Source of the DNA: Natrinema salinisoli
Lineage (GTDB): Archaea; Halobacteriota; Halobacteria; Halobacteriales; Natrialbaceae
Reading direction: 5' to 3'
NCBI RefSeq assembly: GCF_020405205.1
Contig: NZ_CP084469.1
Coordinates: 2,480,001-2,544,000, forward strand
DNA: 64,000 nt
Program-made: the position numbers and the translations under genes
Notes under the pieces: generated by a model
The model's database searches: none
What the model was told of the DNA's origin: nothing
What the model saw: only the letters and a program-made list of their open reading frames with translations
Shown: positions 54,805 to 59,954 of the stretch, in pieces
How the letters are laid out: every line of letters starts with the position of its first letter
Position numbering within the stretch: position 1 is the stretch's first letter

Positions 54805-54863
54805 TGCGCGAGGGATGAGCGAATGACCGACGGGAACGAGCGAATCGGCTGGGGAGGGCGTGG
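54805..54863 (-). repeat. dispersed repeat, copy B (inverted relative to C)
   Basis: Reverse complement matches copy C (55039-55097) over 59 nt with two mismatches; it also matches copy A in its CCACGCCC and CCGATTCGCTCG blocks. B and C are 175 nt apart and could form a long hairpin. Confidence 0.75.
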
Positions 54864-55016
54864 TGACCCCCTGCTGCAACGATATCGAACCTGTCTACCT
54901 TCTTCTGGAGAGAGAGGGTGAATGGTTACTCGATCGTCCAATTCATACTCGAATAGAACGACGTACTCGAGGACGGATTCGGCTCGAGAGTGATCGAATG
55001 GAACGGAATCGTCCAG

Positions 55017-55097
55017 CTATCGTGGCAACGCGGAATTTCCACGCCCACCCCAGCCGATTCGCTCGTTCCCGTCGGTCACTCGCTCATCCCTCGCGCA
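55017..55097 (+). repeat. dispersed repeat, copy C
   Basis: Starts CTATCGTGGCAACG as copy A and continues CCACGCCC, CCGATTCGCTCG and GCTCATCCCTCGCGC. It ends about 190 bp before the moeA start codon. Confidence 0.75.
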
Positions 55098-55288
55098 ATA
55101 TCGCGCCCGCCCTCGCTAGCACTCGGTCGGGGCGCTCACGGATCGCTTCGCTCTCCGTTCGCTTCCGAGACGCTTCCAATAGTCGCGTCTCACGGACAGC
55201 GCGCGCCACCGCATTCCCGTTCCTCGAGTCGGACGGTCGAACCGCGGGTTCCCCCACGTTTTTGCCGTCCGGCGACTCGCATCCTCGT

Positions 55289-56611
55289 ATGGAAGGAGCC
55301 GACCGCGAGCGCACGGAGGCCGGGTTCAAGGTACGGACGCCGGTGGACGAGGCGCGCCGGATTCTCAGGGAGGCCGTCGAGGGGAGTGGGGACGGTGATG
55401 CGGACGTGCCGTGTGGGACCGAAACCGTCGACGTCGACCGCGCGGACGGCCGCGTCCTCGCGGCACCGGTCGCGTCCGCTCGAGACGTGCCCCACTACCG
55501 GCGGGCGGCGATGGACGGCTACGCCGTTCGGGCCGCGGACACGTTCGGGGCCAGCGATCGATCGCCCGAGGTGCTTCGAGTCACCGAGCCCGCGGGCGAT
55601 CCCGACGGGGACGAGCACGCCACCGCCGACCGCATCGATCCCGGAACGGCCGCGCGGGTCCACACCGGCAGCGCGCTCCCCGAGGGAGCCGACGCGGTCG
55701 TCATGATCGAACGGGTGACCGAAGTCGAGACGACCGGCGAGCTCGAGGTCGAGGACGCGGTCGCGGAGGGGGAAAACGTCGCACCGGTGGGAGAGGATAT
55801 CGAAGACGGCCAGCACCTCTACGAGGCGGGACACCGGCTCCGCCCGTCGGATCTCGGACTCCTGCGGTCGGCCGGCTACGGGCGCGTCGCGGTCGCACAG
55901 CAACCAACGGTCGGCGTGATCCCGACTGGCGAGGAACTCGTTGAGGGCGACCCCGGGCCCGGCGAAGTCGTCGAGACCAACGGACTCACCGTCTCACGGC
56001 TGGCCCAGCGCTGGGGCGCTCGCGCGACCTACCGCGACGTCGTCACCGACGACCCCGAATCGCTGCGGGTCGCCATCCAGCGAGACCTGACGAAAGACGT
56101 CGTCGTCACGACCGGCGGCTCCTCCGTGGGTGAGCGCGACCTCTTGCCGGAGGTGATCGACGAGCTGGGAGAAGTCGTCGTCCACGGCGTCGGGCTCAAA
56201 CCCGGGCATCCGGTCTGTCTCGGTGTCGTTCAGGACACCCCGGTGCTCGCACTTCCGGGCTACCCCGTCGCCTGCATCGTCAACGCCGTCCAGTTCCTCC
56301 GGCCGGTCCTGCGCTGGCTCGAGGGAACCACCCCTGATCCACACCCCACCACGCGCGCCCGACTCGAGCGCAAGATCCCGAGCGAACCCGGAACGCGAAC
56401 GTTCGCGCGGGTGCAACTCGAGGTACGCGAGGAGGGTGAAGCGGACGATCGCGACGAACCGGAATACACCGCGATTCCGACCCGAGCAAGTGGCTCGGGC
56501 GTGCTTTCGAGCGTCGCGCTGGCCGACGGCTGGGTGGTCGTGGACGACGACCGCGAGGGGATTCCGGCCGGCGAGACGGTCGCCGTCGAGGACTGGGAAC
56601 CGAACGGCTGA
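55289..56611 (+). CDS. moeA: molybdopterin molybdotransferase MoeA (first copy)
   Basis: This 440-residue enzyme inserts molybdate or tungstate into the adenylylated molybdopterin. It shows DVPHYRRAAMDGYAVRA (domain 1), VHTGSALPEGADAVVMIE, GEDIEDGQHLYEAGHRLRPSD, then the MPT-binding domain with PTGEELVEGDPGPGEVVETNG, TTGGSSVGERDLLPEVI and VGLKPGHPVCLGVV, and a C-terminal beta domain. Length is normal. I chose the ATG at 55289 (MEGADRERTEAGFKVR), which precedes the conserved core by about 25 residues. A second moeA follows at 58038, with a serine hydrolase between them on the other strand. Confidence 0.93.
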   Translation: MEGADRERTEAGFKVRTPVDEARRILREAVEGSGDGDADVPCGTETVDVDRADGRVLAAPVASARDVPHYRRAAMDGYAVRAADTFGASDRSPEVLRVTEPAGDPDGDEHATADRIDPGTAARVHTGSALPEGADAVVMIERVTEVETTGELEVEDAVAEGENVAPVGEDIEDGQHLYEAGHRLRPSDLGLLRSAGYGRVAVAQQPTVGVIPTGEELVEGDPGPGEVVETNGLTVSRLAQRWGARATYRDVVTDDPESLRVAIQRDLTKDVVVTTGGSSVGERDLLPEVIDELGEVVVHGVGLKPGHPVCLGVVQDTPVLALPGYPVACIVNAVQFLRPVLRWLEGTTPDPHPTTRARLERKIPSEPGTRTFARVQLEVREEGEADDRDEPEYTAIPTRASGSGVLSSVALADGWVVVDDDREGIPAGETVAVEDWEPNG

Positions 56612-56698: not shown

Positions 56699-57826
56699 CT
56701 ACCGAAGCGCCTGTCGAACTGCATCCGCCAGCCCGTTCACGCGGGCGACGTGTTCGTACGAGCCCTCGCGAACCCCGTTCGTGACGTACGAAAATCCGAT
56801 GTTTTCCTCGGGGTCGGCCCAGCCGACGCTGCTCCCCAGCCCGGCGTGGCCGAACACGTGGTCGGGCGAGAGCGAGCCGTACGGCGCGACCGTCGTGCCG
56901 CCCTTCCAGAAGCCGAGCGCGAACCGGCCCTCGCGACCGATCGTGCCGTCCGCGTCCGTCTCGGCCTGTACTTGCGCCAGCTGCTCGACGGTCCCGGGTT
57001 GGAGAACCTGCGTCCCCTCGAGTTCGCCGCCGTTGGCGAGGCAAGCGTAGAACCGGGCCATGTCGCCCGCGGTCCCGATCCCGTTGGCGGCGGGGATCAC
57101 GGCACGGTGGATCTCCTCCGCGTTGAACGGGGCCGCGACCTCGGCGTTGTCCCCGAGTCCCTCGCCGGGATCGCGACAGCGGTCGAACGCCTCGAAGCCG
57201 ACCAGCGTCGCCACGTCGTCGTCCTCGTCCTCCCGGAGCCCGATCCCGGTGTCGTCCAGGCCGAGCGGGTCGAACACGCGTTCCTCGGCGGCCTTTTCGA
57301 TCGGCGTGCCCGAAACCCGACGGACGAGTTCGCCCACGAGCCAGCCGAAGGTCAGGGCGTGGTAGGCCGGTACCTCGCCCGGCGGGTAGTTCGGCTCCAT
57401 CTCCTCGAGTTTCTCCACCGCGGCGTCCCAGTCGCCCCAGAGGTCCGGTCGGTCGTCGATCTCGCCCTGGTTGAGCCCCGCGGTGTGGCTGAGCACTTGC
57501 CGAACGGTGATCTCGGCCTTTTCGGTCCCGTCGTCGGCGAACTCGGGCCAGTGGTCGACCACGCGATCGTCGTACTCGAGCTTCCCCTCTTCGACGAGCG
57601 AGTGCAGAGTCACCGCAGCGTAGGGTTTCGTACTCGAAAAGAGGATATGACGCGTCTCGCGGGTCTCGTCCGGACCGGCCGGCGCTTCGACGCCACCCGC
57701 GAGGTCGATCACGGGCTCGCCGTCGACGTAGACGGCCAGCTGCGCCCCGTGGTGAAGCCCGACCTCGAGGTGACGATCGAAGAGATCGGCGATGCGCTCG
57801 CGATCCGTTTCGGAAATTCGTGACAT
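56699..57826 (-). CDS. beta-lactamase-family serine hydrolase
   Basis: This 375-residue protein has the nucleophile motif FSSTKPYAAV (S-x-x-K, near 67-70), the second motif Y-x-A/N at YHALTFGW, and a C-terminal HVFGHAGLGSSVGWAD, the H-x-G-like third motif. It belongs to the class C/esterase-type group (EstB-like). It is probably an esterase or peptidase; beta-lactam resistance is not implied in an archaeon. No signal peptide is visible. I chose the ATG at 57826 (MSRISETDRERIADL) over a start 20 codons upstream. It is convergent with the first moeA. Confidence 0.9.
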   Translation of the reverse strand: MSRISETDRERIADLFDRHLEVGLHHGAQLAVYVDGEPVIDLAGGVEAPAGPDETRETRHILFSSTKPYAAVTLHSLVEEGKLEYDDRVVDHWPEFADDGTEKAEITVRQVLSHTAGLNQGEIDDRPDLWGDWDAAVEKLEEMEPNYPPGEVPAYHALTFGWLVGELVRRVSGTPIEKAAEERVFDPLGLDDTGIGLREDEDDDVATLVGFEAFDRCRDPGEGLGDNAEVAAPFNAEEIHRAVIPAANGIGTAGDMARFYACLANGGELEGTQVLQPGTVEQLAQVQAETDADGTIGREGRFALGFWKGGTTVAPYGSLSPDHVFGHAGLGSSVGWADPEENIGFSYVTNGVREGSYEHVARVNGLADAVRQALR

Positions 57827-57902
57827 GGGTCGCACCTCTTCGGGCGGACGCTTAATCGTTGTCGTACGAGAACATATCACAGCCACACCGCGGCGACGTT
57901 TT

Positions 57903-58014
57903 TATAGTAGTCGTTGAAAATCATTGCACTCCCGCTCGCGAATCAGCGGCCAGCACGGTTCGTACTAGCCGCTCGAGTGCGAGCGGTGAGTAACTCGTTT
58001 CAACGACTACTATA
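57903..58014. mobile_element. MITE-like element with 17-bp perfect inverted ends
   Basis: TATAGTAGTCGTTGAAA at 57903-57919 and its exact reverse complement at 57998-58014 bound a 112-bp stretch with no coding capacity. The inner flanks also show partial symmetry (ACTCCCGCTCGC versus GCGAGCGGTGAGT). It sits 24 bp upstream of the second moeA, probably within its promoter region. No transposase is present. I did not identify a target-site duplication. Confidence 0.7.
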
Positions 58015-58037
58015 GCCCCGGCGTCCGAAAGACCGCT

Positions 58038-59954
58038 ATGAACCGCAAGGAGTTTCGCGATCTCGCGTCCCCCGACGAGGCGCGCGAGGCGATCGACTCG
58101 CTCTCGCTCGAGGGGGGTATCGAGCGGGTTTCACTCGAGGACGCGCGCGGTCGGGTGCTCGTGGCCCGACTCGACGCCGAGCTCGACGTCCCCGGCTTCG
58201 ACCGGGCGAGTCTGGACGGCTACGCCCTCCGGGCCCGGGACACGTTCGGTGCCGACGAGGCAGACCCCGCTCGCCTCGATATCGTCGGCGAGGTCCACGC
58301 GGGTGCGGAACCGGATGTCGCGCTCGAGGCGGGCGAGGCGGCGGAGATTTCGACCGGCGCGGTGATGCCCGACGGGGCCGACGCGATGGTGCCGGTCGAG
58401 CGCACTGATACCGACGCTGGCGGCGACGAGGTCCTCGTCCGCACCTCGGTCGCACCCGGCGACAACGTCATGTTCGCGGGCGCGGACGTCGCCGCCGGCG
58501 AGCGCGCGCTCGGTCCCGGAACGACGATCACGCCCCGCGACATCGGCCTGCTGTCGGCGCTGGGGGTCGACGAGGTCCCGGTTCGAGCCGAGCCCCGCGT
58601 CGGCATCGTCTCGACGGGGGACGAACTCGTGCGGCCGGGCGAGGAACTACACAGCGAGCGCGGGGAGATCTACGACGTCAACAGCTACACCATCGCCGCA
58701 GGGGTCGAGGACGCCGGCGGCGAAGCGGTCCTCTACCCCCACGCCGGGGACGATCAGGACGAGATGGAGCGGATCCTCCGCGAAGCCGCCGAGGAGTGCG
58801 ATCTCGTGCTCTCGTCGGGTTCGACCAGCGCGAGCGCGGTCGACGTCATCTACCGCGTCATCGAAGAGCGAGGGGAGTTGCTGCTCCACGGCGTGAGCAT
58901 CAAGCCGGGGAAGCCGATGCTGATCGGACGGCTGGACGACTCGGCCTACGTCGGGCTGCCCGGCTATCCCGTCTCCGCGATGATGGTCTTCCGGACTTTC
59001 GTCGCACCGGCCATCCGCGAGGCCGCCGGGCGTCCCGAACCCGCAGCGGCGACCGTCGCCGGACGGCTGGCTCGAGAGGAACGCCACGAACAGGGCCGCC
59101 ATCGGCTCATGCCGGTCGGCCTTGTCGGGAGCGGGCCGTCGGAGACGGCCCGAAACGGAGGCGGAGAATCCGCCGAAGGGGACGGGGACGGCGAGACGCT
59201 CGTCTACCCCGTCGACAAGGGCAGCGGCGCGACGACGAGCCTTGCCGACGCCGACGGCGTCGTGGAAATCGGCCCGGAAACCGACTACCTCGAGGCGGGC
59301 GAATCCGTCACGGTTACGCTGTTCTCGCCGGACGTCCGGCCGCCGACGGTGTTCGGTGTCGGCGAGGACGACCCCGCGTTTTCGCGAGTCCTCAACGGAC
59401 TCGAGAACCCGCGCTACCTCGCGGTCGGCAGCCGGCCCGGCCTGCGACGGCTCCGCGAGGGCGTCCCCGACGCGGCGGTGGTCGCGGGACCGCTCGATAG
59501 AGACGTCGAAGCGGACGAGATCGGCCGCTGGGACCGCGAGTGGGGACTGGTGGTCCGAGCCGGCAATCCCGACGAGATCGAGGGGCTCGAGGACCTGGTC
59601 GATCGCGACCTCCGCTTCGTCAATCGGACGACCGACTCCGGATTGCGCTCGAGCCTCGGCGGTGCGGTCGCCGACCTCGCGGACGAGCGGGGAACGGATC
59701 GCCACGAACTCGTCGACGCGATCGACGGTTTCGACCTCGGGCTCCGCGCCCACGAGAGCCCCGCCCGAAAGGTCATCGCGGGCGATGCCGACGCCGGCCT
59801 CGGGCTGCGCGAGACCGCCGACCGCCTCGATCTCGGCTTCGTCCCCCTCGGTGAACAGCCTGTTCGCGTGCTCGCGAATCGCGATCGGACGGGGAAGGAG
59901 GGGGTGCGGGAGCTCGAGCGAGCGCTCGAGGACGTGTCGTCGCGACGGAGATAG
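58038..59954 (+). CDS. moeA: MoeA fused to a periplasmic-binding-protein-like domain (second copy)
   Basis: This 638-residue protein has residues about 1-400 as MoeA: FDRASLDGYALRARDTFGADEADP, TGAVMPDGADAMVPVERT, STGDELVRPGEEL, LVLSSGSTSASAVDVIYRVI, GVSIKPGKPMLIG. Residues about 415-638 form a PBP-like/LysR-substrate domain (LVVRAGNPDEIEGLEDLV, VNRTTDSGLRSSLGG, HESPARKVIAGDADAGLGLRETADRLDLGFVPLG) typical of archaeal and bacterial MoeA fusions, possibly sensing molybdate, tungstate or the cofactor. It starts with the ATG at 58038. With the 440-residue copy it may separate Mo and W insertion, but this is only an inference. Confidence 0.93.
   Translation: MNRKEFRDLASPDEAREAIDSLSLEGGIERVSLEDARGRVLVARLDAELDVPGFDRASLDGYALRARDTFGADEADPARLDIVGEVHAGAEPDVALEAGEAAEISTGAVMPDGADAMVPVERTDTDAGGDEVLVRTSVAPGDNVMFAGADVAAGERALGPGTTITPRDIGLLSALGVDEVPVRAEPRVGIVSTGDELVRPGEELHSERGEIYDVNSYTIAAGVEDAGGEAVLYPHAGDDQDEMERILREAAEECDLVLSSGSTSASAVDVIYRVIEERGELLLHGVSIKPGKPMLIGRLDDSAYVGLPGYPVSAMMVFRTFVAPAIREAAGRPEPAAATVAGRLAREERHEQGRHRLMPVGLVGSGPSETARNGGGESAEGDGDGETLVYPVDKGSGATTSLADADGVVEIGPETDYLEAGESVTVTLFSPDVRPPTVFGVGEDDPAFSRVLNGLENPRYLAVGSRPGLRRLREGVPDAAVVAGPLDRDVEADEIGRWDREWGLVVRAGNPDEIEGLEDLVDRDLRFVNRTTDSGLRSSLGGAVADLADERGTDRHELVDAIDGFDLGLRAHESPARKVIAGDADAGLGLRETADRLDLGFVPLGEQPVRVLANRDRTGKEGVRELERALEDVSSRRR

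Follow-up and report, generated by a model that had tools for sequence, protein, structure and literature searches.

Several described families of small mobile elements resemble the one reported here. In the available part of PMC2229807, which covers RUP, Correia and ERIC, the RUP element of Streptococcus pneumoniae is 107 bp long, with an end TA and inverted ends like those of IS630-Spn1; it lives in another host and has 9-bp ends, and for the present element no partner insertion sequence (IS) was found in the host. The Correia/NEMIS elements of Neisseria, as portrayed in the accessible portions of the same source and of a MITE review (PMC10969869), have long inverted ends, an end TA with target duplication, two length classes set by an internal piece, and described promoter effects on neighbouring genes; the likeness is one of description, and sigma70-like promoters are concerned there, an archaeal TATA box here. 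Among haloarchaea, the part consulted of PMC3119063, which covers the MITEs, PATEs and SMRs of Haloquadratum, describes SMR-A of Haloquadratum walsbyi as about 110 bp long with prominent inverted ends, and SMRs as having no target duplication and ends unrelated to known transposons. The present element also resembles the insertion sequences ISNpe3 and ISNma7, with which it shares inverted ends starting TATAGT, a C-TA-G target and similar DNA inside the right end. In contrast to these IS, which are 1059 bp long and carry a transposase, it has no coding part, and it has TTGAAA where the IS ends mostly have TTAGAA.

The window, that is, the whole stretch of 64,000 nucleotides that was analysed, had been reported in a preliminary description to hold a 112-bp stretch with perfect 17-bp terminal inverted repeats, 24 bp from the start codon of a second moeA gene, and these particulars held. 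The left (57903-57919, plus strand) and right (57998-58014, minus strand) repeats, each including a TA, are 100% complementary over 17 nt and separated by a 78-nt spacer, and they are the only matches to the 17-bp ends in the 64-kb window at up to three mismatches, where 0.03 would be expected by chance. The last base of the stretch is 58014 and the moeA ATG begins at 58038; this gene (58038-59954, plus strand; MoeA_N, MoCF_biosynth, MoeA_C and PBP_like domains), hereafter moeA2, is preceded by another MoeA-like open reading frame at 54860-56611, and its divergent neighbour (56699-57826, minus strand) encodes a protein of the Pfam Beta-lactamase family (PF00144) according to the domain search. 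Because the outer TA on either side (57903-57904 and 58013-58014, neither assigned to a strand) represents the duplicated target, the element proper is the non-coding 108-bp segment 57905-58012 (plus strand), with arm A on the left and arm B on the right.

Consensus comparison delimited the subterminal parts of arm A (57920-57934, plus strand), whose family consensus resembles the right end of the ISNpe3 group, and of arm B (57980-57997, minus strand). The stretch can fold as a single long hairpin and, when 8 flanking bp are added at either end, reaches -63.6 kcal/mol (z -7.85), a value that none of 200 shuffled sequences equalled. An inner hairpin (57946-57972, plus strand), delimited from the fold and from the comparison of forms, is absent from a 75-bp form of the element. 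It is bracketed by two direct copies of CCGCTCG (57932-57938 and 57969-57975, both on the plus strand), 37 bp apart, which is also the difference in length between the 112- and 75-bp forms. At one orthologous site the copy is 112 bp long in the host and 75 bp long in the sister genome G043, so one form can give rise to the other in place; the change from 112 to 75 bp may have been a deletion through slipped replication. The 112-, 84- and 75-bp sets have in common their ends and two differing inner arms, with the consensuses GTCATTGCAC and CGATTTACNC, and differ in their middles.

Other copies of the ends, predicted beforehand, were present both in the host and in related genomes. A search of the host genome with the 17-bp end, allowing up to three mismatches, returned 34 ends versus 4 for a reversed control pattern. 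These host copies comprise six of 112 bp (starting at 1017626, 1082457, 2095039, 2537903, 3745392 and 4190190, the fourth being the moeA2 copy), four of 75-76 bp (1918916, 2086130, 2582572 and 3580108) and eight diverged ones of 71-84 bp, next to two genuine-looking solo ends (2405195 on C1 and 349202 on C2). Matches occurred in 13 of 41 genomes searched, with per-genome copy numbers that are lower bounds, and all 13 belong to one genus. In the GTDB species collection, from which, as in the identity search with IS copy L139, records of or near the host genome may be omitted, the exact paired-end pattern found 96 stretches; the matches listed (80 of the 96) fall in Natrinema, Natronorubrum, Natronosalvus, Natronolimnohabitans, Halomicrobium, Halostella, Natrarchaeobius and one Euryarchaeota MAG. 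At the search sensitivity used, the 112-bp form matched three plasmid records, all from Natrinema, and none from phages.

Some copies lie in particular arrangements. In Natrinema thermotolerans and Natronolimnohabitans innermongolicus, 84-bp MITEs occur as tandem pairs 1-8 bp apart (L160 1696-1864, L166 3971-4143, L175 7395-7570, L185 2921-3090, L197 2447-2619 and L199 3838-4010), which look like the result of one 84-bp MITE inserting at the terminal TA of a second one. Genome G003 has two copies in opposite orientation within 1.1 kb (L286 1017-1128 and 2027-2138), flanking a gene that by eye looks like one for a ThiF/MoeB/UbaA-type E1 protein; this pair could be a composite or a product of chance. 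On the second contig of the host, a solo MITE-like end (L098 3703) stands about 50 bp before an ABC-transporter-like gene. No partner end was found near it at up to four mismatches, and a larger element there was considered and set aside, the genes being ABC-transporter-like with no transposase recognizable by eye.

The moeA2 region was present in all 29 genomes of the genus that were searched, and the insertion at moeA2 is common to the host and its sister G043. The prediction of an empty site with target duplication was upheld at four sites and failed at two. All ten aligned empty moeA loci have exactly one TA at the site, and a single TA was likewise seen in 4/4 empty loci for the copy at 2582572, in the one empty locus for the copy at 1082457, and in 3/3 for the L106 site. 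In contrast, the TA is missing from two uninserted sites of the host, which has ATC where the TA is expected at the L099 site (L267) and CT at the L103 site (L243); sites lacking the TA could reflect point changes or excision footprints. The host's CT and ATC do not differ in length from the target. Alignment at two further L103 loci was too poor to reveal a TA, the copy at 2086130 has a TA in one of two diverged loci, G043 keeps just a remnant at position 1918916, and the L102 site, for which no joined empty allele was obtained, is not part of the TA comparison.

A comparison with the inverted ends of resident transposases had also been proposed. The ends do resemble those of the ISNpe3/ISNma7 group, but the host genome yielded no such transposon. 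Within the family, 75 of 125 genomes have DDE_3 (IS630) transposases, and searches of the host genome returned neither a DDE_3 match nor a DNA match to L139, an IS copy with 82.5% and 82.2% identity to the annotated ISNpe3 and ISNma7; the sister G043 retains a truncated 594-bp piece of an ISNpe3-group IS. At 27 of 30 DDE_3 loci (one from each of 30 genomes, chosen as its best match and so not a random draw), ends starting TATAGT lie 1040-1070 bp apart and show 2 to 6 mismatches to the 17-bp MITE end. None of the IS ends seen is identical over the 17 bp, the best having two mismatches, and the ends of ISNpe3 and ISNma7 themselves start TATAGTA. Beyond the shared repeat, the arm A consensus matches the IS right end better than nearly all shuffles, with 1 (112-bp form) and 0 (84-bp form) of 5000 as good, versus 1251 and 1337 for the left end. 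Arm B was equalled by 69 and 203 of 5000 shuffles on the left end and by 8 and 46 on the right; since it too scores better on the right end, there is no simple one-to-one correspondence between arms and IS ends. The element lacks a DDE_3 transposase, as expected for a MITE, and is therefore not itself an IS630 insertion sequence.

Other partners were sought among lower-scoring DDE_3 loci. The 14 stretches collected, one of them cut by a contig end (L289) and two not DDE_3 loci (L286 and L288), included 12 with a DDE_3 match, and an end pair appeared in one alone, L281, which is of ISNpe3 type with ends 934 bp apart. Nor was an autonomous element with TGAAA ends found among the collected loci by the criteria used, the long pairs returned by that search having ISNpe3-type ends or such ends mixed with a nearby MITE end. 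Two ISNpe3-type elements (L117 1363-2503 and L138 797-2009) are flanked at short distance, on one side or on both, by MITE-like ends and look as if inserted in or beside 84-bp-type MITEs. The transposase genes of ISNpe3 and ISNma7 (L274 348-1348 and L275 348-1348) are annotated at 1001 bp, a length not divisible by three, and many DDE_3 open frames among those listed span only about 180 aa, which together suggest a frameshift between two frames.

We regard the stretch, with high confidence, as a MITE of the IS630/Tc1-mariner kind, because it has inverted ends, copies elsewhere, single-TA empty alleles at four sites and ISNpe3/ISNma7-like ends; short and non-coding, it belongs to a dispersed set with TA duplication at empty sites and transposon-related ends. 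The identification made in the preliminary description is thereby confirmed. The family is a new one of a known, IS630-type kind, possibly described elsewhere: a search of literature mostly outside subscription journals returned nothing on ISNpe3, on IS630 with Natrinema or on IS630-linked MITEs in halophilic archaea, and among titles on haloarchaeal or Natronomonas MITEs none on the present family was seen, ISfinder being outside the scope of that search.

Target preference was analysed on 158 copies, those that had 400 bp or more of flank and no more than four end mismatches in all, the remainder being dropped. The TA is preceded by C in 120 of the 158 and followed by G in 122, both in 93, whereas in the same DNA 238 of 11181 TA sites have the C-TA-G context. 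The ISNpe3-group IS have the same target, with C before the TA in 19/22 cases and G after it in 21/22. Gene positions came from a crude, purpose-made gene caller, and whether a copy lies within a gene was judged on its joined flanks, since the MITE ends contain stops. On this basis predicted genes are avoided (13 of the 158 copies versus 74/238 C-TA-G sites, p 3e-8) and stop codons are hit often (26/158 copies versus 19/238 C-TA-G sites, p 0.015, and versus 206/11181 TA sites, p 1e-16), with p-values that are optimistic because some of the 158 copies represent the same site in sister genomes (e.g. L010 and L104). The interval 20-30 bp before predicted starts is not enriched (4/158 versus 250/11181 control TA sites, p 0.78; 10/238 among C-TA-G sites), and family-wide start-proximal targeting is accordingly not supported.

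Where the MITE has inserted into a stop codon, the reading frame continues through four codons of the element's end before reaching TGA in 26/26 cases. The IS ends have TAG (58) or TAA (2) at the same place (60/60), and 309 of 316 MITE ends have a stop there, a count conditioned by the MITE ends, though not the IS ends, having been picked partly on TGA. The presence of three different stop codons at one place suggests selection for self-repairing insertion. A C-TA-G or TTAG target in a GC-rich archaeon would often lie within a stop codon or TATA box, and the end sequence would restore both: read outward, it offers a TATA-like box with the spacing unchanged. On this reading, the MITE and its IS630 relatives could have ends built for harmless landing. 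We nevertheless consider this doubtful, because no stop occurs in the second frame of these ends (0/60 IS, 0/316 MITE) and start-proximal sites are not enriched.

At moeA2, the suggestion that the element could carry or alter the promoter proved apt in that the insertion lies within a conserved TATA box and supplies a TATA-like replacement, from which an effect on expression may follow. Haloarchaeal genes are commonly leaderless, and the A+T peak at -30 to -26 in 469 gene upstream regions, defined with the same crude gene caller, is at the place expected for the TATA box of such genes. The motif TTT[TA]TA is found at -29 (23 loci) or -30 (1 locus) from the ATG in 24 of 26 related moeA2 loci, these being the ones among 30 fetched in which the start could be placed by alignment, with genome G041 counted twice; the two loci without it are those of the host and G043, both MITE-bearing. 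This box ends in the target TA. The original box, TTTTTA (57899-57904, plus strand), conserved at -29 in related genomes, is now 110 bp further from the gene. The MITE end and its TA read CTACTATA, which puts a TATA-like hexamer, ACTATA (58009-58014, plus strand), at -29 to -24, the old box position. By a motif learned from the 469 upstream regions, the best 8-mer of the replacement, TATAGCCC at -27, reaches the 55th percentile among gene upstream regions and the 89th among shuffled ones, and native boxes rank at the 99th (L064) and 85th (L082) percentiles. ACTATA is not clearly enriched at the TATA position (2/2345 versus 5/8911 further upstream). As the replacement box scores below the native box by the learned motif, the likely outcome, judged from sequence, is a leaderless promoter that still works, though less strongly. 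Of the two ends of the insertion in G043, the one towards moeA is intact and the far one has 4 changes in 17.

The last observations bear on the idea that selection has kept the insertion as a promoter module for moeA2, as opposed to its being a neutral passenger. Its placing in the TATA box, its supply of a TATA-like hexamer at the same spacing and the intact moeA-side end in G043 speak for this, but they concern a single site, four changes against none is a weak difference, the family shows no enrichment 20-30 bp before starts and the replacement box falls short of the native one; we hold it to be unlikely. Still less credible is a haloarchaeal small mobile repeat of the Haloquadratum kind, without target duplication or transposon kinship. 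The length of about 110 bp and the prominent inverted ends agree with the description of SMR-A in the part seen of PMC3119063, and the two uninserted sites without the expected TA would fit as well. However, TA duplication accounts for the four insertion sites with clear empty alleles and the ends resemble those of the ISNpe3 group, so that both traits said to be absent from SMRs were found here; moreover, SMR-A targets PATEs and IS605-type elements according to the same partial source, whereas the present copies prefer C-TA-G.

The strong fold raises a further alternative, a structured RNA or regulatory hairpin (leader, attenuator or processing site) kept for its fold and spread by duplication instead of transposition. 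Paired changes do occur in the 84-bp subfamily, at 8 of 24 pairs (reached by 5/500 shuffles), with a covariation score that none of 500 shuffles attained, and the 112-bp set has nine double-change cells (2/500 shuffles) and a covariation score reached by 14/500. In that same set, however, the double changes fall in just 2 of 34 pairs, no better than shuffles (237/500), and paired changes might also come from one transposase binding both ends or from template switching at the palindrome. Rfam returned no match in 57800-58100 at E values up to 1, and the TA target duplication and the fixed target context speak against a hairpin spread by duplication. We consider this explanation highly improbable, and retain the identification as an IS630-type MITE.

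For the history of the moeA2 copy, we infer that a transposase of the ISNpe3 group, supplied in trans, inserted a relative of the element at the TA within the TATA box of moeA2, duplicating that TA. This would have happened in the common ancestor of the host and G043, and the source of the transposase would later have been lost from the host. With a TATA-like hexamer exactly at the old box position, a leaderless moeA2 mRNA is probably still made, perhaps more weakly, and the displaced old box may drive a second, longer transcript whose leader would include most of the MITE hairpin.

If the ends do allow harmless landing, which we doubt, a TA-targeting element could spread in a compact, GC-rich genome at small cost to its genes. 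The family ties haloarchaeal MITEs to a named transposon group, and moeA2 offers a natural experiment in which the TATA box of the same gene is found with a MITE in two genomes and without it in 24 loci.
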